Shown here: positions 2,086-19,121 of the stretch, piece by piece
How positions within the stretch are numbered: position 1 is the stretch's first letter
Layout of the letters: every line of letters begins with the position of its first letter
DNA from: Acidobacteria bacterium RIFCSPLOWO2_02_FULL_67_21
GTDB taxonomy: Bacteria; Acidobacteriota; Vicinamibacteria; Vicinamibacterales; UBA2999
Length of the DNA: 46,854 nucleotides
Assembly (NCBI GenBank): GCA_001767195.1
Contig: MEKU01000046.1
Location: 23,683 to 70,536, forward strand
Direction: 5' to 3'
Program-made: the position numbers and the translations under genes
The notes under the pieces: generated by a model
Database searches by the model: none
Seen by the model: the letters and a program-made list of their open reading frames with translations, nothing else
What the model was told of the DNA's origin: nothing

Positions 2086-3453
2086 ATGCGCCGACGAACT
2101 GTAAGTGTCCTCGCCCTCGCCGTGCTGCTGATGGCCACGCCCGTGTTTGCCCAGGGGACCGAGCCCGACCCGATGAAAGTCGCGCTGGATACCGTGTGGG
2201 TTCTGTTGACCGCGTTTCTCGTGTTCTGGATGAATGCCGGGTTCGCGTGCCTCGAGGCGGGTCTGTGCCGTGCCAAGAACGCCGTCAACATTCTGGCGAA
2301 GAACTTCGTCGTGTTCTCGGTGGCGTCGCTGGCCTTCTGGCTCTTGGGCTTCGCGATGATGTTCGGCGATGGCAACGCCTTCGTGGGGACGAGCGGCTGG
2401 GCGTTGACGGGCGCCGACAACAGCCCTGCGATGAACGATGCCTACAGCGGCGTCTACAGCGCGATCAGCTGGACCGGCGTACCGCTGGAGGCGAAGTTCT
2501 TCTTCCAACTCGTCTTCGCCGCCACCGCCGCGACCATCGTCAGCGGCGTGGTCGCCGAGCGGATCAAGTTCCTCTCGTTCATCGTCTTCTCGTTCATCCT
2601 CGTGGCCGTCATCTATCCCATCGGCGGCCACTGGGCGTGGGGCGGCGGCTGGCTGAGCGGGATGGGCTTCGTGGACTTCGCGGGATCGACGGTCGTGCAC
2701 AGCGCCGGCGGTTGGGCCGCGCTCGCCGGCGTCCTGCTCCTCGGGCCGCGCATCGGCAAGTACATGGCGGACGGGTCGGTGCGTGCGATTCCGGGTCACA
2801 ACATGGGCCTGGCGACCCTCGGCACGCTGATCCTGTGGCTCGGCTGGTTCGGCTTCAATCCAGGCAGCACCATGGCCGCCGACGCCGACGCCATCGCGAA
2901 GATCGCGCTGAACACGACGATGGCCGCGGCGGCTGGCGCGCTGGCGGCGACGGCCGTGGCCTGGGTCGCGCTCACCAAGCCCGACCTGAGCATGATTCTC
3001 AACGGCACGCTGGCCGGTCTGGTGGCGATCACCGCGCCCTGCGCCAACGTGAACCTGCCGAGCGCGGTGCTCATCGGCGGCATCGCCGGCGTGCTGGTGG
3101 TCTACTCGGTCCTCTTCTTCGACAAGGTCAAGGTGGACGATCCGGTCGGCGCGCTCAGCGTCCACCTGGTCAACGGCGTCTGGGGCACGCTGGCGGTGGG
3201 GCTCTTTGCCACCGAGGGCGGCCTGTTCTTCGGCGGCGGCGCCAGCATGCTGCTCACACAGCTCATCGGGGTGGCCGGCTTCGGGGCAATGGCCTTCACG
3301 CTGAGCCTGGTCGCCTGGTTCGTGCTGAAGGTCACCCTGGGCATTCGGGTGAGCGCGGCGGAAGAGGCGGAGGGCCTCGATATGGGCGAGCACGGGATGG
3401 ATGCGTATCCCGGCTTCGTGCCCACGCAGGACGCGCGGGCGGAAATCATCTAA
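2086..3453 (+). CDS. amt: ammonium transporter, signal-peptide type
   Basis: The 455-aa product is an Amt/Mep/Rh family channel that moves ammonium across the inner membrane. A cleavable signal peptide is visible at residues 1-22 (ending PVFA before QG). Eleven membrane segments follow with family hallmarks: FACLEAGLCRAKN near the first helix, the signature FAATAATIVSGVVAERIKF, and the pore twin histidines at H205 (STVVHSAGG) and H360 (LSVHLVNGVWG). It ends in EHGMDAYPGF, the tail typical of this subgroup. The ATG has a good GGAGGTGA site. It differs clearly from the second Amt at 8365, so this is not a recent duplicate. The following hairpin and porin gene suggest co-transcription. The likely inhibitor is one of the PII proteins encoded downstream. 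Confidence 0.96.
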   Translation: MRRRTVSVLALAVLLMATPVFAQGTEPDPMKVALDTVWVLLTAFLVFWMNAGFACLEAGLCRAKNAVNILAKNFVVFSVASLAFWLLGFAMMFGDGNAFVGTSGWALTGADNSPAMNDAYSGVYSAISWTGVPLEAKFFFQLVFAATAATIVSGVVAERIKFLSFIVFSFILVAVIYPIGGHWAWGGGWLSGMGFVDFAGSTVVHSAGGWAALAGVLLLGPRIGKYMADGSVRAIPGHNMGLATLGTLILWLGWFGFNPGSTMAADADAIAKIALNTTMAAAAGALAATAVAWVALTKPDLSMILNGTLAGLVAITAPCANVNLPSAVLIGGIAGVLVVYSVLFFDKVKVDDPVGALSVHLVNGVWGTLAVGLFATEGGLFFGGGASMLLTQLIGVAGFGAMAFTLSLVAWFVLKVTLGIRVSAAEEAEGLDMGEHGMDAYPGFVPTQDARAEII

Positions 3454-3517: not shown

Positions 3518-4354
3518 ATGTTCTTGACTCGTGCAGCGCGTTACGGATTCCCGGCACTCGTGACCCTTCTCCTCGTGGCGGTGACGGCGGCGCCGGCGAT
3601 GGCGCAGGAGGCCCCGGCCAGCTCGCCCGTCGTGGCGGTCAGCGGCGGGATCGATTTCGTGAACACCTACATGTTCCGTGGCATCCGGCAGAACAGCAGC
3701 GGCCTGGCGACCTGGCCGTACTTCGACCTCGGGGTGGCCGCGTTCGAAGGCGAGGGCGCGCTGAAGAAGGTCAGCTTCAATCTGGGATCGTGGAACAGCG
3801 CGCATTCCGATCCCGGCGGCTGGTACGAGTCCGACGTGTACGGCACGCTCGGCCTCGCATTCGGGGGCGGCGTCAGCCTGGGCACGACCTACACGTCGTA
3901 TACCAGCCCGGACGACCGCTTTACGCACGTGAAGGAGCTGGCCGTCAAGCTGGCCGTTGACGACAGCGCCTATCTCGGCGCCGGGGCGCTCAAGCCGTAC
4001 GCGCTGTTTGCGTTCGAGATGGGGGCCGAGCCGGGCAAGTACCAGGCCGACGGCGGCAGCAAGGCAGGCCGGTACCTCGAGCTGGGCGTGGCGCCCGGCG
4101 TGAGCGGCGCCAGGGCGTCGCTCGCCGTTCCCGTCAAGCTGGGGCTGAGCGTCGGCAACTACTACGAGCTCGACGGCGTCGACAGCACGTTCGGGTTCTT
4201 CAGCGCGGCGGGGATTGTGACCGTTCCGCTCGGCTCGCATTGGAACGTCCATGGCGGCGCCGAAGTCCAGGCGCTCGGCGACGCGACAAAGGCGCTCAAC
4301 GGCGGCGACGGCGAGAGAGTCGTCGGCTCGATTGGGCTCGGATTCGCCTACTGA
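3518..4354 (+). CDS. outer-membrane beta-barrel protein, TorF / TIGR02001-like (copy 1)
   Basis: The 278-aa product starts at the ATG at 3518 behind AGGAGGA; longer upstream frames are not needed. Residues 1-28 form a signal peptide ending AMAQ. The mature part is alternating amphipathic strands, beginning with GGIDFVNTYMFRGIRQ, a signature I associate with the TIGR02001 (gcw_chp/TorF) outer-membrane family, and closing with GSIGLGFAY, an aromatic C-terminal residue suited to BAM insertion. It is a tandem paralogue of the next gene. Function of the family is not established; its place between amt and glnD suggests passage of a small nitrogen compound through the outer membrane. Family placement is from motif memory. 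Confidence 0.85.
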   Translation: MFLTRAARYGFPALVTLLLVAVTAAPAMAQEAPASSPVVAVSGGIDFVNTYMFRGIRQNSSGLATWPYFDLGVAAFEGEGALKKVSFNLGSWNSAHSDPGGWYESDVYGTLGLAFGGGVSLGTTYTSYTSPDDRFTHVKELAVKLAVDDSAYLGAGALKPYALFAFEMGAEPGKYQADGGSKAGRYLELGVAPGVSGARASLAVPVKLGLSVGNYYELDGVDSTFGFFSAAGIVTVPLGSHWNVHGGAEVQALGDATKALNGGDGERVVGSIGLGFAY

Positions 4355-4376
4355 CGCGGATCGCACGTTGATGTGG

Positions 4377-4398
4377 CGCGAACCCTGTTGGGTTCGCG
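4377..4398 (+). other. intercistronic hairpin (9-bp stem, TGTT loop)
   Basis: CGCGAACCC pairs exactly with GGGTTCGCG across TGTT. It ends two bases before the GGAGGT ribosome site of the second porin gene, so its folding could modulate access to that site. Confidence 0.6.
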
Positions 4399-4409
4399 TG
4401 GAGGTGCGG

Positions 4410-5288
4410 ATGTCACGGACTCGCTCGGCATGGAACTGGGGAGCAGGGATAGCTGTTGCGTCGATTCTCCTGGCGTTCGTCGCGGCTCCGGCCGCGGCGC
4501 AGGAGCCGCCGGATCCGAATCCCGGCAGCCTGACGCTGACGGCGAGCATGGACTTTCTGAATGCGTACATGTTCCGCGGAATCCGCCAGGACGACACGGA
4601 AGTCATCATGTGGCCGGCGGCGGACCTGGGGATTGCCGTCTATTCGGGCGACGGAGGGGTGAAGAGCGTTGGCGTGAACGTCGGCACCTGGAACAGCCTG
4701 CACACGGGCGCGGCGGGCAGCGACGGCCCGAGCGGCAAGCTGTGGTACGAGGGCGACTTCTACGCGACGCTCGGACTCGGGTTGGGCGGCGGGGTTGGCG
4801 TGTCGACGACGTATACCGCCTACACCAGCCCGAACAACCTGTTCAGCACGGTCAAGGAGATCGCGTTCAAGCTGGGCGTGGACGACTCGGTCTACCTCGG
4901 GGCCGCTGCGCTCAAGCCGTATGCGCTGCTCGCGCGGGAGCTCGACACGGCACCGGGCCTCGGCCAGGCGGACGCCGGGCTGAACGCGGGGACATATCTG
5001 GAGTTCGGCGTGGCGCCAGGCTGGGCCGGGGAGGCGGCCAGTCTGGCGTTTCCGCTGAAGGTGGGGCTCAGCGCCGGCGATTATTACGAACTTGCCGGCG
5101 CTGACCACACATTCGGGTACTTCAGCGTCGCCGGGATCGCGACGGTGCCGCTCGGAGGGACCACCAGCTTCGGCGCGTGGAATCTTCATGGCGGCGTCGA
5201 ATTTCAGGCGCTCGGCGAGACCACGGAGGCGATCAACGGCGACGGCCACAAAGTGATCGGCTCAATCGGGATTGGACTCGCCTACTGA
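4410..5288 (+). CDS. outer-membrane beta-barrel protein, TorF / TIGR02001-like (copy 2)
   Basis: The 292-aa product begins at the ATG at 4410, five bases after GGAGGT. A signal peptide (SILLAFVAAPAAAQ) is followed by DFLNAYMFRGIRQDD, matching DFVNTYMFRGIRQ of copy 1. The two proteins align through ALKPYALLA, LEFGVAPG and the end GSIGIGLAY. This copy has an extra loop (TGAAGSDGPSGK) after TWNSLH. Divergence is substantial, so the duplication is old and both copies are probably useful. Same uncertain transport role as copy 1. Confidence 0.85.
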   Translation: MSRTRSAWNWGAGIAVASILLAFVAAPAAAQEPPDPNPGSLTLTASMDFLNAYMFRGIRQDDTEVIMWPAADLGIAVYSGDGGVKSVGVNVGTWNSLHTGAAGSDGPSGKLWYEGDFYATLGLGLGGGVGVSTTYTAYTSPNNLFSTVKEIAFKLGVDDSVYLGAAALKPYALLARELDTAPGLGQADAGLNAGTYLEFGVAPGWAGEAASLAFPLKVGLSAGDYYELAGADHTFGYFSVAGIATVPLGGTTSFGAWNLHGGVEFQALGETTEAINGDGHKVIGSIGIGLAY

Positions 5289-5388: not shown

Positions 5389-7944
5389 ATGATTGGGGCG
5401 GCTTCACGGAGAGATGCACCGGACATGTCGCTGACCGGGCCTGACGCCGGTTCGACGCTCAGGGCCGCCCTGGAAGCCGCTCGCGAAGACCTGCGTCAGG
5501 AGATCGCCCGCGGCGACGGGGGCCGGGCCGCCCTCCAGGCGCATGCGACGCGCGTCGACGAGCTGCTCCAGCAGCTGTATGTCGAGGCGGGCGTTCCCGA
5601 TCGGCCGGTTGCCATCATCGCGCTCGGCGGCTACGGCCGCCGGCACCTGTCGCTCCATTCGGATATCGACCTGCTCGTGCTGTTCGGCGGCCGCATCGGG
5701 CCGTCGGAAGAGCGGTTCCTCCGCTCGTTCCTGCACCCGCTCTGGGATCTCGGGGTGGTGGTGGGCCATCAGGTCCGCGAGCTCGACGAATTCGCCGACC
5801 TCGAGACCGACAACCCCGAGTTCCTGCTCGCGCTCCTCGATGCCCGGCTCGTGGCCGGCGCCGCCGCCCTGTTCGATCGCCTCCAGGCGATGTTCCATCA
5901 GCCGACGACCCATGCCTACATCCTGCGCTCGCTGCTGGAGCTCGTGGAAGAACGGCACGCGCGGTTCAACGACACGCTGTATCAGCTGGAGCCTGACGTG
6001 AAGGAAGCGCCCGGCGCGCTCCGCGACGTCATGGCGGCGCGCACGATCGCGATGCTGACCGATCCGGTCCTGCTGCGGCGGGGCCCGGCGGATCCCGGCC
6101 GGTTCGAGGACGCGGAGGACTTGCTCCTTCGCGTGCGCTCCGTGCTGCATCTGGAAAGCGGGCGGAACCACAACGTGCTGAGTCACGAGCTGCAGGAGCA
6201 CACCGCCGCGGTGCTTGGCTACGCGGGCGCGGAGCCGCGCCAGCGCGTCGAGCGGCTGATGAGCGACTATTTCCGCCATGCGCGCACGGTCGGCCGGACG
6301 CTCGAATGGGTGCGCCGCGCCGCGCCCGTGCCGGTCGGTCCGAATCTCGGGCTCTCACGCGACGGCATCCGCTTTCTCGACCCCGTACGCGCCGCCGCGG
6401 CGCCGGCGTCCTGGATCGGCGCCTTCCAGGCCGCCCTCGAGGCGAACACCGAGGTGACCGACGAGGCGCTCTCGTGCATTCAGCAGCACGCGGAGCGCTA
6501 CCGGCCCGACGACTTCACGCCGGAACCGCGCGACCGGGCCGCGCTCCTGCGCCTCTTCAGGCCGCGCCCGGGGCTGTACGCGCGGCTGTCCCAGATGCAC
6601 GACTGCGGGCTGCTCGGCCGCATCTTTCCCGAGTTCGATGCGGTCGCGTGGCGGGTGGTGCGTGACTTCTACCACAAGTACACCGTCGACGAGCACACGC
6701 TGCTCACCATCCGGAATCTCGAGCGGCTCGTCCAGACGGATGCGCCCGAGCGTCAGCGCTTCAAGGCCGTCGCCGCGAGCCTGCCGTCGCTGGAGCTCCT
6801 GGTGCTCGCGCTGCTGCTGCACGACGTCGGCAAGTGGCGCGACGACGAGCATGCGCCCGAGAGCGTGCGCATGGCGGCCGAGGCGCTCGATCGGCTGCAG
6901 GTGCCGCCGGAGGCGCGCGAGACGGTGCTCTTTCTGATCCGCCATCACCTCCAGATGTCGATGGTCGCCTTCCGCCGCGACACCGAGGACCCGGAGGTCG
7001 TCCGCGAGTTCGCGCGTCTGCTCGGGACCGAGGATCGGCTGAAGCTGCTCTGCCTGATGACGCTGGCCGACATCGAGGCCGTCAGCCCCGAAACGCTCAC
7101 GCCGTGGAAAGAGGAGCTCATCTGGCGGCTGTACGTCGACACGTACAACCATCTCACCCAGCGGTACGGCGATGAGCTGATCGGCCGCAACGCGGCCGGA
7201 CTCGGCGAATTGCTCACCTGGCGCCCCCACGACCTGTCCGAGGCGGAGATCATCGGCTTCGTCGAGGGGCTGCCGCAGCGATACCTCCAGCTGTTCTCCC
7301 GCGACGCGATCTACCGCCACGTCCGGCTCGCGCGCGACATTGGCCCCGACGAGGTGCACCTCTCGCTCGAGCAGACAGACGGCGTCTGGACGCTCGCCGT
7401 CGTGACGCTCGACAAGCCGTTTCTCTTTTCCAACATCTGCGGCGTGCTCTCGTCGTTCGGCATGAATATTCTGCGCGGCCAGGCGCTCACCAACTCGAAC
7501 GGTCTCGTGCTCGACGTGTTCCAGTTCATCGACGATGAGCGGTTTCTCGCGATGAACCCGGACGCGCATGGCCAGGTGCTGCACGTGCTCCAGGATGTCG
7601 TGTCGGGCCACGCCGACGTGACAACGCGGCTCCGGGGACGCGAGCGGAGCGTCCTGCAGTGGCGGGGCGCGCCGCGCGTAGCGCCGGTCGTGCGCGCCGA
7701 CAATACGGCCTCGGGCCGCTACACGATCCTCGACATCGTGGCCGGCAACGCGCTCGGCCTGCTGTATCGAATCAGCCGGGTCATCTCGCAGCATGGCTGC
7801 GACGTCGACCTCGTGCTCATCTCCACGGAAGGGGAGAAGGCGATCGACGTGTTCCACATCACCAAGGCGGGGATCAAACTGGACGAGGCGGAGCAGCGCG
7901 CGCTGACCTCCGACCTGCAAGGCACATTGGAGGGCACGCTATGA
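5389..7944 (+). CDS. glnD: GlnD, PII uridylyltransferase / uridylyl-removing enzyme
   Basis: The 851-aa product senses glutamine and adds or removes UMP on PII. The nucleotidyltransferase site is visible as GGYGRRHLS followed by D92-I-D94. A PII-UTase helical region follows, then the HD hydrolase motif LLLHDVGK (H478-D479), which removes UMP. Two C-terminal ACT domains begin near 666 (WTLAVVTLDKPFLF) and 777 (YTILDIVAG) and bind glutamine. All catalytic parts are intact and the length is close to the Escherichia coli enzyme (890 aa). I chose ATG 5389 with GAGG nine bases upstream; ATG 5425 after GGAGAG is an alternative. Its TGA overlaps the ATG of the PII gene, tying enzyme and substrate in translation. 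Confidence 0.96.
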   Translation: MIGAASRRDAPDMSLTGPDAGSTLRAALEAAREDLRQEIARGDGGRAALQAHATRVDELLQQLYVEAGVPDRPVAIIALGGYGRRHLSLHSDIDLLVLFGGRIGPSEERFLRSFLHPLWDLGVVVGHQVRELDEFADLETDNPEFLLALLDARLVAGAAALFDRLQAMFHQPTTHAYILRSLLELVEERHARFNDTLYQLEPDVKEAPGALRDVMAARTIAMLTDPVLLRRGPADPGRFEDAEDLLLRVRSVLHLESGRNHNVLSHELQEHTAAVLGYAGAEPRQRVERLMSDYFRHARTVGRTLEWVRRAAPVPVGPNLGLSRDGIRFLDPVRAAAAPASWIGAFQAALEANTEVTDEALSCIQQHAERYRPDDFTPEPRDRAALLRLFRPRPGLYARLSQMHDCGLLGRIFPEFDAVAWRVVRDFYHKYTVDEHTLLTIRNLERLVQTDAPERQRFKAVAASLPSLELLVLALLLHDVGKWRDDEHAPESVRMAAEALDRLQVPPEARETVLFLIRHHLQMSMVAFRRDTEDPEVVREFARLLGTEDRLKLLCLMTLADIEAVSPETLTPWKEELIWRLYVDTYNHLTQRYGDELIGRNAAGLGELLTWRPHDLSEAEIIGFVEGLPQRYLQLFSRDAIYRHVRLARDIGPDEVHLSLEQTDGVWTLAVVTLDKPFLFSNICGVLSSFGMNILRGQALTNSNGLVLDVFQFIDDERFLAMNPDAHGQVLHVLQDVVSGHADVTTRLRGRERSVLQWRGAPRVAPVVRADNTASGRYTILDIVAGNALGLLYRISRVISQHGCDVDLVLISTEGEKAIDVFHITKAGIKLDEAEQRALTSDLQGTLEGTL

Positions 7945-8270
7945 AGCTGATCAAGAGTATCGTCCGTCCGAACAAGGTGGACGAGGTCAAGGACGCGCTG
8001 GCCAGGCTGAACATTGCCGGTATGACCGTCACGGAAGTGCGCGGCCACGGCAAGCAGAAGGGACACACCGCGATCTATCGCGGCAAGGAGTACAACGTCA
8101 GCCTGCTGCCGAAGATGGAGGTCGAGGTCGTCGTGGCCGACGCGCTGGCCGATGAGGCGATCAAGGCCATCGTCGACGCCGCCCGCACGGGAGAAATCGG
8201 GGATGGGCGCGTGTTCGTGTTCCCGGTCCTCGAGAGCTACCGTATCCGCACCGGCGAGAGGGAAGTCTAG
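7941..8270 (+). CDS. glnB: PII signal transduction protein (first copy)
   Basis: This is a 109-aa PII trimer subunit that binds ATP/ADP and 2-oxoglutarate and reports nitrogen status. The T-loop contains YRGKEYNVS with the uridylylation target Y51 at the canonical position. GHGKQKGHT and the C-terminal signature TGEIGDGRVFVFPV are complete. The start overlaps glnD by ATGA and has GGAGGG upstream. It differs from the PII at 9649 at only 10 of 109 residues. GlnB and GlnK cannot be told apart by sequence alone; I named this one glnB from its coupling with glnD. Confidence 0.96.
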   Translation: MKLIKSIVRPNKVDEVKDALARLNIAGMTVTEVRGHGKQKGHTAIYRGKEYNVSLLPKMEVEVVVADALADEAIKAIVDAARTGEIGDGRVFVFPVLESYRIRTGEREV

Positions 8271-8364: not shown

Positions 8365-9609
8365 ATGAATCAAGCTGACACAGCATGGATGTTGATCTCG
8401 ACCGCGCTGGTGCTGTTGATGACCCCGGCGCTGGCGTTCTTCTACGGCGGGCTGGTGCGCTCCAAGAACGCGCTGAACACGATGATGATGAGTTTCATCT
8501 CGCTCGGGTTCGTCGGCGTGCTCTGGGCGCTGATCGGATACTCGCTGGCGCTGTCGGCGGGGAATAACTGGATCGGCGACCTCTCCCTCGGCTTCCTGAA
8601 CGGCGTCGGGCTCGACGCCGCGGGTGCGATCGTGCCGATCACGATCCCGCACGCCCTGTACATGGCGTTCCAGGCGACGTTCTGCATCATCACCGCGGCG
8701 CTCATTTCCGGCGCGATTGTCGAGCGCATGCGCTTCTCCGCCTACCTCACGTTCATCTCGTTGTGGTCGGTCGTCGTATATGCGCCGCTGGCGCACTGGG
8801 TATGGGGCGGGGGCTGGCTGGCCGACATGGGCGCGTGGGATTTCGCCGGCGGCACCGTCGTGCATGTGAACGCCGGAGCGGCGGCGTTCGTGGCGGCGTT
8901 CGTCGTCGGCAAGCGGTCCGAGTACCGCGCGTCGACGCTGCTTCCGCACAGCGTGCCGCTTGTGCTGCTCGGCTCCGGGCTGCTCTGGTTCGGGTGGTTC
9001 GGCTTCAACGCCGGCAGCGCGCTCGCCGCCAGTCCCATCGCGGGCCTGGCCTTTGTGACCACGATGCTGGCGCCCGCGGCCACCCTCGTGGTCTGGACGT
9101 TCCTCGACCTGTGGCGGTCGGGCAAGCCCACGGCCGTGGGTGCCGCGACGGCCATCGTCGTCGGGCTTGTGGCGATTACGCCGGCCGCCGGCTTCATCAG
9201 CCCGCTCAACGCGATCTTCCTCGGCGCCATCGCCGCGGTCCCCAGCTATTTCGCGTTGATCATCCGCGCCAAGACGTCCCTGGACGATTCGCTGGACGTG
9301 GTCGCGGCCCATGGCGTGGGCGGCACCGTGGGCGCGCTCCTGACCGGCGTGTTCGCCGAGCGCAGCGTCAACGGCGTGTTCGACGGCCTCATCGCCGGCA
9401 ATCCGGGGCAGGTCCTGATCCAGGGCGCGGCGGTGCTCACGGCGATTGTCTACAGCGGCGTCATGAGCTTTATCCTGTTGAAGGCCATCAGTATCGTGCT
9501 TCCGCTGCGCGCCACCGCCGACGACGAGAGTGTCGGGCTCGACATCACGCAGCACGGGGAAGAAGCGTACATGCACGTTGGCGGCGCATCGGCGCGCACT
9601 CACCTGTAG
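8365..9609 (+). CDS. amtB: ammonium transporter, AmtB type
   Basis: The 414-aa inner-membrane ammonium channel has no cleavable signal peptide; its first helix is MTPALAFFYGGLVRSKN, the usual AmtB opening. The signature FQATFCIITAALISGAIVE, the pore histidines H167 (GTVVHVNAG) and H316 (VVAAHGVGG), and the tail DITQHGEEAY are present. An intact tail of this kind is where GlnK docks in related systems. The ATG follows TGAGGTGA. Lying between two PII genes, it forms the classical amtB-glnK pair with the gene at 9649. Confidence 0.97.
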   Translation: MNQADTAWMLISTALVLLMTPALAFFYGGLVRSKNALNTMMMSFISLGFVGVLWALIGYSLALSAGNNWIGDLSLGFLNGVGLDAAGAIVPITIPHALYMAFQATFCIITAALISGAIVERMRFSAYLTFISLWSVVVYAPLAHWVWGGGWLADMGAWDFAGGTVVHVNAGAAAFVAAFVVGKRSEYRASTLLPHSVPLVLLGSGLLWFGWFGFNAGSALAASPIAGLAFVTTMLAPAATLVVWTFLDLWRSGKPTAVGAATAIVVGLVAITPAAGFISPLNAIFLGAIAAVPSYFALIIRAKTSLDDSLDVVAAHGVGGTVGALLTGVFAERSVNGVFDGLIAGNPGQVLIQGAAVLTAIVYSGVMSFILLKAISIVLPLRATADDESVGLDITQHGEEAYMHVGGASARTHL

Positions 9610-9648: not shown

Positions 9649-9978
9649 ATGAAGCTGATCAAGAGCATCGTCCGCCCCAATAAGGTCGACGATGTCAAGG
9701 ATGCACTGGCCACGCTGAACATCTCGGGCATGACGGTCACGGAGGTGCGCGGCCACGGCAAGCAGAAGGGCCATACCGCCATCTACCGCGGCAAGGAATA
9801 CAACGTCAGCCTGCTTCCGAAGATGGAGATCGAGATTGTCGTCGCCGACAACCTCGTGGAGGAGGCGATCAAGGCGATCGTGCAGGCGGCGCGAACCGGC
9901 GAGATTGGCGACGGTCGGGTCTTCGTCTTCCCGGTGCTCGAAAGCTACCGGATCAGGACGGGCGAGAGGGAGAGCTGA
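9649..9978 (+). CDS. glnK: PII signal transduction protein (second copy)
   Basis: The 109-aa product is about 91 percent identical to the PII at 7941, with the same Y51 in YRGKEYNVS. The ten differences (for example R22T, A26S, A68N, D79Q) mostly avoid the T-loop. GGAGGG precedes the ATG, and a small GCCGG/CCGGC hairpin lies in the 39-base gap after amtB. Directly following amtB, it probably acts as GlnK, blocking the channel when nitrogen is plentiful and being released after uridylylation by GlnD. The high similarity suggests recent duplication or gene conversion. Confidence 0.96.
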   Translation: MKLIKSIVRPNKVDDVKDALATLNISGMTVTEVRGHGKQKGHTAIYRGKEYNVSLLPKMEIEIVVADNLVEEAIKAIVQAARTGEIGDGRVFVFPVLESYRIRTGERES

Positions 9979-11820: not shown

Positions 11821-13565
<1,745 letters not shown>

Positions 13566-13566
<1 letters not shown>

Positions 13567-13634
13567 ATCCCAAATCCCAAACTCCAAATCCCAAGACGCA
13601 CCCAGGGCATTTTGGGATTTGGGATCTGGGATTT
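13566..13634. repeat. palindromic repeat, TCCCAAATCCCAA family
   Basis: TCCCAAATCCCAA (13568-13580) is the exact complement of TTGGGATTTGGGA (13612-13624), with further partial copies on both sides. It fills nearly the whole pilB-pilT gap and starts on the pilB stop codon. A related element with CCAACTCCCAA arms lies at 38456-38520. Confidence 0.75.
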
Positions 13635-13649
13635 GTCGAGAGGGCATAG

Positions 13650-14777
13650 ATGACATTACCCGAGCTGCTGCAGAAAGTCGTGGAACTGGACGGATCGGAC
13701 CTGCATCTGGCGACGCGGACGCCGCCGCAGATCCGCGTGCACGGCCACCTCGAGCGGCTCGACGGGCCGGATCTGACGCCGGCCGACACCAAGCAGCTGG
13801 CCTACAGCGTGCTGACCGACGCGCAGAAGAAGCGCTTCGAGGAGACCCTCGAGCTCGATTTCTCCTTCGGCATCCAGGGGGTCGGACGGTTCCGCTGCAA
13901 CCTGTTCCACCAGCGCGGCGCCGTGGGTGCGGTGTACCGGCTGATCCCCGAGCGCATCCGCTCGTTCCAGGAGCTCGGCCTGCCGGCGGTGCTGGCGACC
14001 CTGGCGGAGAAGCCGCGCGGCCTCATCCTCGTCACCGGCCCGACCGGGAGCGGCAAGTCGACCACGCTGGCCGCGATGGTCGACAAGATCAACAAGGAGC
14101 GGCACGACCACATCCTGACGATCGAGGACCCGATCGAATTCGTCCACCAGCATCAGAACTGCCTCGTCAACCAGCGCGAGGTGCACTCCGACACCCAGAA
14201 TTTCGGCAACGCGCTTCGCGCGGCGCTCCGCGAAGATCCCGACATCGTGCTGATTGGCGAGATGCGCGACCTCGAAACGGTGGAATCGGCGCTGCGCATC
14301 GCCGAGACCGGCCATCTGACGTTCGGCACGCTGCACACCAATTCCGCGTCGCAGACGATCAACCGCATCATCGACATCTTTCCGGCGCACCAGCAGAGCC
14401 AGATCCGGACGCAGCTGTCGCTCGTCCTCGAAGGGGTCGTCTGCCAGGCGCTCTGTCCCAAAATCGGGGGCGGCCGGGTCGTGTCGCTCGAGATCCTGAT
14501 CCCGACGCCGGCCATCCGGAACCTCATTCGCGAGGACAAGGTGCATCAGATCTACTCCTCGATGCAGACGGGGCAGGAGAAGTACGGGATGCAGACGGCG
14601 AATCAGTCGCTCGCCACGCTCCATCAGCGGAAGCTGATTACGCTCGAGACGGCGATGGAGAAGTCCTCGAACCGCGAGGAGCTGCAGGACATGATCAACC
14701 GCGGGACCGGGGTCGTGGCAGGCGCGGGGCTCGGGCGCCCCGGCACCCCACCAGTACGCCCCGGGATGGGACGGTAG
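13650..14777 (+). CDS. pilT: PilT, type IV pilus retraction ATPase
   Basis: The 375-aa hexameric ATPase drives pilus retraction and twitching. It has Walker A GPTGSGKS (130-137), Asp box ILTIEDPIEF, Walker B IVLIGEMRDLET, His box TGHLTFGTLHTNSA, and the PilT-specific AIRNLIRE (288-295) needed for retraction. It lacks zinc cysteines, unlike PilB. GAGAGGG lies six bases before the ATG. The C-terminal tail after residue 350 is rich in G, R and P and looks disordered. The gap to pilC is three bases. Confidence 0.97.
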   Translation: MTLPELLQKVVELDGSDLHLATRTPPQIRVHGHLERLDGPDLTPADTKQLAYSVLTDAQKKRFEETLELDFSFGIQGVGRFRCNLFHQRGAVGAVYRLIPERIRSFQELGLPAVLATLAEKPRGLILVTGPTGSGKSTTLAAMVDKINKERHDHILTIEDPIEFVHQHQNCLVNQREVHSDTQNFGNALRAALREDPDIVLIGEMRDLETVESALRIAETGHLTFGTLHTNSASQTINRIIDIFPAHQQSQIRTQLSLVLEGVVCQALCPKIGGGRVVSLEILIPTPAIRNLIREDKVHQIYSSMQTGQEKYGMQTANQSLATLHQRKLITLETAMEKSSNREELQDMINRGTGVVAGAGLGRPGTPPVRPGMGR

Positions 14778-14780
14778 GGT

Positions 14781-15998
14781 ATGGCGACTTTCGCATACAG
14801 CGGGCGGGCGCGCGGCGGGCAGGTCGTGAACGGCGAGTTCATGGCCGACACCATCGATGCCGCCGTCGCGGCCCTTCGGCGCGAGCAGATCCTGGTCACG
14901 AAGATCAATCCCGTGAAGGACAAGCGGGCGGAGGCGCGCCGCAAGGTCGGGACCCGGTCGGTGAAGGCCAAGGACCTGGCCGTCTTCACGCGGCAGTTCT
15001 CCGTGATGATCGGCGCGGGCCTGCCGCTCGTGCAGTGCCTGGAGATCCTCGGCACCCAGGCCGAGGACAAGAAGTTCGGCGAGGTGATCCTGGCGACGCG
15101 CGCCGACGTCGAGGCGGGCGCGTCGCTGGCCGACGCGATGAAGAAGCACCCCAAGGTGTTCGACTCGCTCTTCACCAACATGATTGCCGCCGGCGAGGCG
15201 GGCGGCATCCTCGACGCGATCCTCAAGCGCCTGGCCACCTACATTGAGAAGAACGTCAAGCTGAAGAGCCAGGTCAAGTCGGCGATGGTCTATCCGGTGG
15301 CGGTCATCGTGATCGCGACGGTTGTCGTGGCCGCGATCCTGTGGAAGGTGATTCCCACCTTCGCCTCGCTCTTTGCGGGGCTCGGCGCCGACCTTCCGCT
15401 GCCGACCCGGATCGTGATTGCGCTCAGCGATTTCCTCGTGGCGTACATGCCGGTCATTATCGGCACCATCGTGGCCATCTCCTTCGCCCTCCGCGCGTAC
15501 TACCGGACCGTGGGCGGCCGCATGATGATCGACCGGCTGGTCCTGAAGATGCCGGTGCTCGGAATGCTCATGCGGAAGATTGCGGTGGCCCGCTTCTGCC
15601 GGACGCTGTCGACGCTGCTCGCGTCGGGCGTGTCGATTCTCGAGGCGCTCGACATCACGGCGCGGACGGCCGGCAACGCGGTCGTCGAGCAGGCGCTCTT
15701 CGCCACGCGCAAGAGCATCGAGGGAGGCGACACGGTGGCCGGGCCGCTACGCCAGACCGACGTCTTCCCGCCGATGGTCGTGCAGATGATCGGCGTGGGC
15801 GAGGCGACGGGCGCGCTCGACACGATGCTCGCCAAGATCGCCGACTTCTACGAGGACGAGGTCGACGTCGCGGTGGCGGGGCTGCTCACGCTGCTCGAGC
15901 CGCTGATGATTTCGCTGCTCGGCGGCGTCGTCGGCGGCATCGTGATCGCGATGTATCTGCCGATCTTCAGCCTGATCAGCCAGCTGACGGGGGGCTAG
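14781..15998 (+). CDS. pilC: PilC, type IV pilus inner-membrane platform protein
   Basis: The 405-aa product is a GspF-family protein with two homologous cytoplasmic domains (about 65-190 and 270-395) and three membrane segments. It opens with MATFAYSGRARGGQVVNGEF and carries FTRQFSVMIGAGLPLVQCLEIL in the first half and FCRTLSTLLASGVSILEALDI in the second, the expected internal repeat. It docks PilB and PilT to the membrane. The frame is complete at normal length (about 400 aa). It follows pilT by three bases and lies in the conserved order pilB-T-C. Confidence 0.97.
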   Translation: MATFAYSGRARGGQVVNGEFMADTIDAAVAALRREQILVTKINPVKDKRAEARRKVGTRSVKAKDLAVFTRQFSVMIGAGLPLVQCLEILGTQAEDKKFGEVILATRADVEAGASLADAMKKHPKVFDSLFTNMIAAGEAGGILDAILKRLATYIEKNVKLKSQVKSAMVYPVAVIVIATVVVAAILWKVIPTFASLFAGLGADLPLPTRIVIALSDFLVAYMPVIIGTIVAISFALRAYYRTVGGRMMIDRLVLKMPVLGMLMRKIAVARFCRTLSTLLASGVSILEALDITARTAGNAVVEQALFATRKSIEGGDTVAGPLRQTDVFPPMVVQMIGVGEATGALDTMLAKIADFYEDEVDVAVAGLLTLLEPLMISLLGGVVGGIVIAMYLPIFSLISQLTGG

Positions 15999-16017
15999 TA
16001 CGAATCTCCGTGCGCGC

Positions 16018-17685
16018 GTGGCCGCGCTCATTGCCGTCCGCCTGGTGGTCAGCACACTGCTGCTCGGCTCGGCGACGCTCATCGAGCTGAACCGGCCCGG
16101 CGCGCTGCCGGTCGACCCGTTCTTTCTGCTGATCGGCGTGACCTACGCCGTCAGCATCGTCTACATCTGGACGCTGCGGGTCATCGAGCGGTTTCCCTGG
16201 CTGGCCGATCTGCAGCTGGCCGTCGATGTCCTCCTGGTCACCGGGTTCATCGGCCTGACCGGCGGGATCGTCAGCTACTTCTCGTCGCTGTACTTCCTGC
16301 CCATCATCGCCGCGAGCACGCTCAGCTTCCGGCGTGGCGCGCTGTACATCGCCCTGCTCAGCGCGCTGCTGTACATCGGGCTGGTCACGGCACAGTACGT
16401 TGGCGCACTTCCCGACTGGCTGGGCGGTAGCTCGCTCCCGTTGCCGCTGGGACGGTTCGCCCAGTACACGCTGGCCATCAATATTTTCGGCTTTGTTGCC
16501 GTCGCGCTCCTCTCAGGGTCGCTGGCGGAGCGCCTGCGGTCGGCCGACGTCCGCCTCGAGCACGCCTCCCACGAGATCGCCGACCTCCGCGCGTTCAACG
16601 AGTACGTGATCGACGGTCTCCTGAGCGGCCTGATCACCACCGACGCCCAGGGCCGCATCCTGACGTTCAACCGCGCCGCGGCCTCGATCACCGGCATTCC
16701 GCCCGAGCAGGCGGCCGGCCAGGACGCCGGCGAGGTCCTGCAGCTGCCCGACACGTTCCGGGCGCGGCTGGCCACGCTCGTGCAGACGCGCAGCCTCCGC
16801 CTCGAGTTCGAGTACCGGACCGGCGACGGCCGGACGCTGGACATCGGTCTGATGGTGACGATGATTGCGCTGCCCAACGGCCGCAGCGGGTATCTCTTCA
16901 CCTTTCAGGACGTCACCGAGCTGCGGCGACTCGAGCGCAACGCGCGCCTGCAGCAGCGGCTTGCCGCGGTCGGAGAGATGGCGGCCGGCATCGCCCATGA
17001 GATCCGCAACCCGCTCGCGGCGATGTCAGGGTCGATGCAGGTGCTGCGGCAGGAGCTGCCGCTCAGCGACGAGCAGCGGCAGCTCATGGACATCGTGCTG
17101 CGCGAGTCGGATCGCCTCAACGACACCATCCGATCGTTTCTGGCCTACGCGCGGCCGCAGAAGTTTTCCGTGGCGCGGCTCGACCTGCGGACGGTCGTGC
17201 AGGATGCGGCGGTGCTGCTGCGCAACAGTTCCGAGGCGCACGCGGACCATGTGGTCGATATGGACGTCCCTGCCGAGCCGGTCTGGTACGAGGCGGACGA
17301 GAATCAGATCCGGCAGATCGTCTGGAACATCGCGAGCAACGGCCTGCGTGCCATGCCCCACGGCGGCCGGCTCGTGCTCTCGGTGGAGCTGGATGCGGCG
17401 CACGCGCAGGACGAGGTCGTGCTCGGCGTCCGGGATCAGGGCCACGGCATTCCCGCCGAGGAGCTCGACAACATCTTTCAGCCGTTCCGCAGCTCGTTTG
17501 ACCGCGGCACCGGCCTGGGGCTCGCCATCGTGCACCGGATCGTCACCGACTACGGTGGCGTGATTCAGGTGTCCTCGACGGTGGGCGTCGGCACGACTGT
17601 CCGCGTGCGGCTGCCGATCCGGACGCTGCCGGCGGTCGAGCCGGCCGCGGCTCCGGGCAGCCGCAGCGAGGGAGGGGCCGCGTGA
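16018..17685 (+). CDS. pilS: PilS, membrane sensor histidine kinase
   Basis: The 555-aa product has about six N-terminal membrane segments (1-165), a PAS domain (about 190-300), a HisKA domain with the phospho-acceptor H327 in GIAHEIRNPLAA, and a HATPase domain with an N box (QIRQIVWNIASNG) and G boxes (DQGHGIP, GTGLGLAI). This is the PilS architecture, which senses membrane pilin and phosphorylates PilR. No ATG is available; GTG 16018 is the best start, without a strong ribosome site and 19 bases after pilC. The stop overlaps the pilR start in GTGA. Confidence 0.95.
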   Translation: MAALIAVRLVVSTLLLGSATLIELNRPGALPVDPFFLLIGVTYAVSIVYIWTLRVIERFPWLADLQLAVDVLLVTGFIGLTGGIVSYFSSLYFLPIIAASTLSFRRGALYIALLSALLYIGLVTAQYVGALPDWLGGSSLPLPLGRFAQYTLAINIFGFVAVALLSGSLAERLRSADVRLEHASHEIADLRAFNEYVIDGLLSGLITTDAQGRILTFNRAAASITGIPPEQAAGQDAGEVLQLPDTFRARLATLVQTRSLRLEFEYRTGDGRTLDIGLMVTMIALPNGRSGYLFTFQDVTELRRLERNARLQQRLAAVGEMAAGIAHEIRNPLAAMSGSMQVLRQELPLSDEQRQLMDIVLRESDRLNDTIRSFLAYARPQKFSVARLDLRTVVQDAAVLLRNSSEAHADHVVDMDVPAEPVWYEADENQIRQIVWNIASNGLRAMPHGGRLVLSVELDAAHAQDEVVLGVRDQGHGIPAEELDNIFQPFRSSFDRGTGLGLAIVHRIVTDYGGVIQVSSTVGVGTTVRVRLPIRTLPAVEPAAAPGSRSEGGAA

Positions 17686-19121
17686 GCGCGCCGAAACCCG
17701 GGACGATCGGCGAGCCGCCGCAGGCGCCGGTATCGGCCGCCAGGCCGCGCATTCTCATCGTGGACGACGAGCCCTCGATGCGCGAGATGCTGGGCATCGT
17801 CATGCGCCGCGACGGCTATGACGTCGTCGTAGCGGGGAGCGGGAAGGATGGGATCGCGCGGCTCGAGGCGGAGTCATTCGACCTGCTGCTGTCGGACATC
17901 CGGATGCCCGACCTCGGCGGCGTCGACGTGCTGCGCGCCGCCAAGACGATCAACCGCGATCTCGTCGTGTTCATGATGACCGCCTTCGCATCGACGGAGA
18001 CGGCCGTGGAGGCGATGCGGCTGGGCGCGGTCGACTACCTGATCAAGCCGTTCAGCATGGACGAGCTGCGGCTCAAGGTCCGCCGGCAGCTCGACGCCCG
18101 CCGGCTCCGCGAGGAGAATCTCCTGCTCAAGCGCGCGCTCAAGACGCGCCACGAGTTCTCGAGCATCCTCGGCCGCAGCGATGCGATGCAGCAGGTGTTC
18201 ACCACGATTCAGACCATCGCCGTCACGAGCAGCACCGTGATGATCACCGGCGAGTCAGGGACGGGCAAGGAGCTCGTGGCGCGCGCGATTCATTTCAACT
18301 CGCTGCGCCGCGACCGGCCGTTCGTGGCGTTGAATTGCGGCGCGGTGCCGGAGACGCTGCTCGAGTCCGAGCTCTTCGGCCACATGCGCGGCGCCTTTAC
18401 CGGCGCCCACGCGAACAGGAAGGGGCTGATCGAGGCCGCAGAGGGAGGGACGATCTTTCTCGACGAGATCACCGAGATGCCGCCCTCGATGCAGGTGAAG
18501 CTGCTGCGCGTGCTGCAGGAGCGCCGGTTCAGGCGGCTCGGCGGCACTGAAGAGGTGCTGGCGAACGTCCGCGTGATTGCCGCGACGAACCAGGATCTTC
18601 CGGTGAGCGTTACGGAGGGACGGTTCCGCGAGGACCTCTTCTATCGGCTCAACGTGCTCTCGATCCGGCTGCCGGCCCTGCGCGAGCGCGTCGAGGACAT
18701 TCCGCTCCTGGCGGAACACTTCCTTCAGCAGTTCACCGCGCAGATGGGCAAGCGCGTACGCACGATTTCCGCCGACGCGCTCCGGCTCCTGCAGGAGCAT
18801 CCCTGGCGCGGCAACGTGCGGGAGCTGCAGAACGCCATCGAGCGCGCGGTCGCCCTCGAGCAGACCGAGGCGATTCTCCCTGAGAGCCTGCCAGACGACG
18901 TCCGCCGAGGCGGCGCGCCCGGCGCGAAGGGATCGGGCGGGCGGCCGCTGCCCGAATTGGGCGAGGGGTTCGATCTGGAGAAGCGCGGCGAGGAGTTCTA
19001 CCGGCACTACATCACGCTCGCGCTCGAACGCGCCGGAGGCGTGCAGGTCAAGGCCGCCGAGCTCCTGGGAATGAGCTTCCGATCGTTCCGGTACTACGTG
19101 AAGAAGTTCAAGCTACGCTGA
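17682..19121 (+). CDS. pilR: PilR, sigma-54-dependent response regulator
   Basis: The 479-aa activator has a receiver domain (about 22-140, phospho-acceptor D72 in LLLSDIRMP), a sigma-54 AAA+ domain with Walker A GESGTGKE (190-197) and the sigma-54 contact loop GAFTGA (237-242), and a C-terminal Fis-type helix-turn-helix ending SFRSFRYYVKKFKLR. It starts with GTG overlapping the pilS stop. The next gene, pilA, has a near-consensus sigma-54 promoter and an upstream palindrome, so pilA is the likely target. The linker around 405-435 is rich in glycine and charged residues. Confidence 0.96.
   Translation: MSAPKPGTIGEPPQAPVSAARPRILIVDDEPSMREMLGIVMRRDGYDVVVAGSGKDGIARLEAESFDLLLSDIRMPDLGGVDVLRAAKTINRDLVVFMMTAFASTETAVEAMRLGAVDYLIKPFSMDELRLKVRRQLDARRLREENLLLKRALKTRHEFSSILGRSDAMQQVFTTIQTIAVTSSTVMITGESGTGKELVARAIHFNSLRRDRPFVALNCGAVPETLLESELFGHMRGAFTGAHANRKGLIEAAEGGTIFLDEITEMPPSMQVKLLRVLQERRFRRLGGTEEVLANVRVIAATNQDLPVSVTEGRFREDLFYRLNVLSIRLPALRERVEDIPLLAEHFLQQFTAQMGKRVRTISADALRLLQEHPWRGNVRELQNAIERAVALEQTEAILPESLPDDVRRGGAPGAKGSGGRPLPELGEGFDLEKRGEEFYRHYITLALERAGGVQVKAAELLGMSFRSFRYYVKKFKLR

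Follow-up and report, generated by a model that had tools for sequence, protein, structure and literature searches.

Tandem TIGR02001-related barrels in an acidobacterial amt-glnD-PII block as candidate outer-membrane channels for ammonium and other small monovalent cations

In the genome of Acidobacteria bacterium RIFCSPLOWO2_02_FULL_67_21, we analyzed a stretch of 46,854 nucleotides (contig MEKU01000046.1, positions 23,683 to 70,536; hereafter, the window) that contains a nitrogen block encoded entirely on the plus strand. The block begins with an ammonium transporter gene, amt1 (2086-3453; TIGR00836, 402.8 bits; PF00909, 397 bits; TIGR03644, 460 bits, which is under that model's own cut-off), followed by the genes for two outer-membrane barrels, barrel A (3518-4354; 278 amino acids) and its tandem paralogue, barrel B (4410-5288; 292 amino acids). 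These are succeeded by the PII uridylyltransferase gene glnD (5425-7944; TIGR01693, 501.5 bits against a cut-off of 519.4; PF08335, above its cut-off), a first PII gene of the glnK/glnB type (7941-8270; PF00543, 103 bits), a second ammonium transporter gene, amt2 (8365-9609; TIGR00836, 432 bits), and a second PII gene (9649-9978; PF00543, 105 bits). The gaps from amt1 through barrels A and B to glnD are 64, 55, and 136 nt, and the start codon of the first PII gene overlaps the glnD stop codon, with an overlap of 4 nt. A sigma-54 (-24/-12) type promoter site, TGGCGCTcatcTTGCT (that is, TGGCGCTCATCTTGCT), lies on the plus strand some 150 nt upstream of amt1 (1919-1934). Upstream of the block lies a divergent EF-G-like gene. 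On its 3' side, positions 11821-19121 carry a type IV pilus-like block, in which a sensor/response-regulator pair succeeds PilB-, PilT-, and PilC-like genes.

Both barrel genes are intact open reading frames, preceded by the ribosome-binding sites AGGAGG (A) and GGAGGT (B), and both products have an N-terminal signal-peptide-like stretch (ending APAMAQ|E in A and APAAAQ|E in B) and a C-terminal aromatic beta-signal (GLGFAY and GIGLAY, respectively). The dN/dS ratio is approximately 0.24 between A and its 75% identical orthologue and 0.34 between A and B, which are 57% identical, and both barrels are thus under purifying selection. Given these features and the family scans of the neighbors, all on one strand, the original prediction of tandem barrels between amt and glnD was correct. 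On a tree of the family, A clusters with the single copy of one related genome (G028) and B with the copies of two others (G199 and G285), so the split between A and B probably predates these genera.

The same prediction had called the two proteins "TIGR02001-like", which stands as a statement of homology and fails as one of formal membership. TIGR02001 ("TorF family putative porin") has a cut-off of 47.15 bits, which neither A (31.0 bits) nor B (22.7 bits) reaches; against PF09694 (Gcw_chp; gathering score, 24 bits), A scores 21.4 bits and B has no match. When the acidobacterial set was aligned with a proteobacterial TIGR02001 set by hhalign, the N-terminal 106 columns matched with an E-value of 7.5e-10 and a probability of 96.5%, and the motifs YxFRGIxQ, GxWxS, and a YExD-type motif are common to both sets. 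The acidobacterial barrels form a separate, long-branched clade on the tree. In other words, judged by sequence comparison, the window barrels are homologous to TIGR02001 but lie beyond its curated limits; because they match the family and yet score under its cut-off, we regard them as a divergent side-branch.

Among 297 genomes of the phylum in a first draw, 11 contained a homologue, all of them in the order of the window, and in 10 of these the barrel adjoins amt, PII, or glnD. Of 100 genomes of this order searched with a profile, 26 had a barrel; 13 further loci were taken as a held-out set, of which 10 are linked in the same way. The total is thus 20 of the 24 genomes examined, all of the same order and mostly with sigma-54 sites, and the remaining four have only unlinked copies. 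In the commonest layout, the barrel immediately precedes glnD-PII and amt is found on either side; the barrel keeps its place next to glnD-PII even where protein identity falls to 35-45%. A different family of the order has tandem barrel pairs as well (genomes G206, G584, and G606). The extra, unlinked barrels of G199 and G116 were set aside, as their scanned neighbors are not nitrogen-assimilation genes (in one, an amino-acid permease). The second barrel of the window's own genome was likewise rejected as a potassium copy, since KdpC is absent from that genome.

A sigma-54-type promoter ahead of the block had also been predicted, and this is borne out: the site at 1919-1934 is the sole match to TGGCNCN5TTGCW within the window, where 0.19 are expected, and it is conserved in relatives. 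Seven of ten loci, the window included, carry a strict site on the coding strand, 100-265 nt upstream of their first gene, out of only eight strict matches across the entire ten loci on both strands; in 2000 runs with shuffled sequences, the mean was 0.01 loci with a strict site and the maximum was 1. In the held-out loci, which were not used to define the pattern, the strict form gave one match only, and a fixed-weight score was therefore needed; by this score, six of the 10 linked held-out loci have a site ahead of the first PII gene (P <=0.018 each). Among the 24 acidobacterial genomes, a NifA-like sigma-54 activator adjoins or lies inside the block in eight sister loci, and the window's genome contains rpoN and, elsewhere, a 58% identical relative of this activator. 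In genome G116, an unrelated porin of the BBP2 family (PF07642; L023:3146-4486) with its own strict sigma-54 site lies ahead of the barrel-amt-glnD-PII block. Taken with the published NtrC-dependent nlmA-glnK-amtB operon (PMC3023670), the conserved sites and the activators of the sister operons make nitrogen control of the barrels, as originally proposed, a well-supported inference from sequence and analogy.

We also surveyed the Pseudomonadota, in which about half of the sampled genomes (137/249) have TIGR02001 matches. Among the 120 top-ranked loci, each inspected over approximately 6 kb on either side, 31 have amt or PII beside the barrel. In these best 120 loci, the barrel is directly ahead of PII in 16 and directly behind amt in 13, on the same strand and within 163 nt. 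Recurrent linkage to amt or PII genes was the sequence-based test on which the original prediction had been staked, and in both phyla the linkage is strong; it takes several gene orders and, judging by the tree, has arisen many times independently. This supports the original proposal in part. Control genes in the same 120 loci were found in 0-4 cases (EF-G, 2; PilC, 4; PilB, PilT, SMC, and two metabolic genes, 0), which rejects chance linkage; a PilR query matched 22 loci, as expected from the great abundance of response regulators, KdpE among them.

A second partner emerged from the same survey. In 13 of the best 120 loci, kdpB and kdpC are near the barrel, and in 12 of these it is apparently within the operon (L087, L120, L130, L145, L150, L152, L164, L165, L167, L168, L171, and L173). 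In eleven loci, the barrel is no more than 120 nt from the kdp genes, and its position varies: between kdpC and kdpD, kdpB and kdpD, or kdpB and kdpC, or ahead of kdpB; in L173, it probably lies ahead of a putative kdpA. The barrels of L183 and L182 have kdp/amt nearby without clearly belonging to the operon. On a FastTree phylogeny of 134 barrels, for which the counts are approximate, the amt and kdp labels interleave, requiring at least 13 and at least seven changes, respectively, on well-supported branches. Six genomes (G467, G342, G478, G454, G386, and G379) have one amt-linked and one kdp-linked copy, and in G467 these (L086 and L087) are sister copies on the tree. Approximately 63% of the proteobacterial family members in this sample are beside neither amt nor kdp. 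Other neighbors include a microcompartment shell (BMC) gene together with a gene of the amino-acid-permease family, which may form an ethanolamine system (L089:5956-8822); a conserved amidohydrolase-like gene directly 5' of the barrel (L099, L110, L114, and L115); and a CysW/CysA-like pair of ABC permease and ATPase genes, also directly 5' (L084:3782-6705 and L098:5986-8865). Among the partners looked for in this non-exhaustive survey, no comparable recurrence was seen for those of anions or sugars.

An AlphaFold2 model of barrel A, built on a five-sequence alignment and of moderate confidence (mean pLDDT, 67.5; pTM, 0.65), has twelve main antiparallel strands closing a barrel, as in the KdgM/NanC fold; this holds for barrel A, the only one modeled. 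Among solved structures, the model comes closest to KdgM (Z 19.8; rmsd 1.6 over 163 residues), a COG4313 channel (Z 19.7), and NanC (Z 19.3), of which KdgM and NanC are small-solute porins; a sequence search of solved structures gave no match. The predicted fold is porin-like, and the substrate is not readable from it. The putative lumen of the model has eight acidic and three basic residues. We tried lumen and total charge as a marker of ammonium selectivity and rejected it: family members without amt or kdp are more acidic, so the charge counts do not discriminate.

Based on the tandem order of the genes, their signal peptides and beta-signals, the model of barrel A, the recurrent linkage, and the conserved promoter sites, we infer that the barrels are made under nitrogen starvation, reside in the outer membrane, and pass ammonium or small monovalent cations. 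Both genes would encode small, monomeric, 12-strand outer-membrane channels, transcribed from a sigma-54/nitrogen-responsive promoter jointly with the ammonium transporter and the PII/GlnD sensors, so that the pore would be made at the same time as the high-affinity importer of the inner membrane. When fixed nitrogen is scarce, the barrels would raise the permeability of the outer membrane to ammonium, and periplasmic ammonium could thereby keep pace with Amt. We put the chance that the barrels are such nitrogen-responsive channels at about even. The divergence of A from B predates the genus, which makes a difference in affinity or gating between the two barrels probable.

Ammonium and potassium ions have nearly equal radii, and the recurring pairing with the uptake systems of both suggests that the barrels let either of these small ions across the outer membrane when its supply is low. 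A pore for monovalent cations is the simplest reading because it covers both partner systems, and outer-membrane channels of nutrient starvation for such cations, here ammonium, appear to be the best interpretation of the window pair. More tentatively, and with somewhat less than an even chance in our estimation, TIGR02001-type barrels in general may be small monovalent cation channels, whose paralogues have been repeatedly recruited into high-affinity operons for ammonium (amt-PII-glnD) and potassium (kdp), giving Gram-negative bacteria a dedicated outer-membrane entry under starvation.

The objections to this view include that general porins already pass ammonium and that gene neighborhood indicates co-regulation, not substrate. 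The kdp linkage agrees with a channel suited to ions as large as ammonium and potassium, and also with a non-specific starvation porin, that is, a non-selective channel for small solutes that several starvation regulons (nitrogen, potassium, and others) have recruited as a means of making the outer membrane more permeable overall, in which case the neighboring gene would mark the trigger. Family members beside the CysA/W-like transporter, the permease and microcompartment genes, a Kef-like antiporter, and the amidohydrolase point in this direction, as does the acidobacterial operon to which the BBP2 porin is added under the same type of promoter. Against this, the two commonest partners by far among those looked for serve ions of near-equal size, and those for anions or sugars do not recur likewise among the neighbors surveyed. 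We consider this chief rival possible but rather unlikely. It is improbable that the barrels serve another small nitrogen compound scavenged under nitrogen limitation (methylamines, ethanolamine, amino acids, or urea): the barrel of L089 directly adjoins its permease and shell genes, and the family is named after TorF of TMAO respiration, but none of the recurrent neighbors, Amt, PII, and Kdp, handles organic nitrogen. That the barrels are instead periplasmic or envelope proteins modulating or sensing Amt-PII, in keeping with the placing of NlmA "most probably in the periplasm" by the Herbaspirillum authors (PMC3023670), is very unlikely in view of the signal peptide, the aromatic C-terminal beta-signal, and a 12-strand model with Z of about 19 to KdgM/NanC.

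The usual assumption is that general porins carry ammonium and potassium across the outer membrane; we know of no dedicated outer-membrane channel for either. A widespread family that recurs in ammonium and potassium operons makes this assumption directly testable, and the linkage offers a rule by which many proteins annotated as "TorF family putative porins" could be given a function. In the limited collection of literature searched, we found no paper on TIGR02001 or Gcw_chp, and none on a barrel in kdp operons; other papers may mention them.

Among known systems, KdgM and NanC resemble barrel A in the fold of its model but share only 6-8% identity with it, and their solutes are acidic oligosaccharides and sialic acid. 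The closest counterpart of the window block is the nlmA-glnK-amtB operon of Herbaspirillum seropedicae, which is co-transcribed and NtrC-dependent, with expression 21-fold higher under nitrogen limitation, and whose NlmA is membrane-associated with no assigned function (PMC3023670). The likeness, a membrane-associated protein encoded beside amt and PII, is drawn from the published description of the operon. H. seropedicae has one copy, ahead of glnK, and its operon is described without glnD, whereas in the window two tandem copies separate amt from glnD, which is itself part of the block. The linkage to amt-PII and the nitrogen control are thus already published for H. seropedicae (PMC3023670); the acidobacterial variant, with its tandem pair between amt and glnD and its conserved sigma-54 sites, and the pairing with kdp are, as far as we have checked, new.
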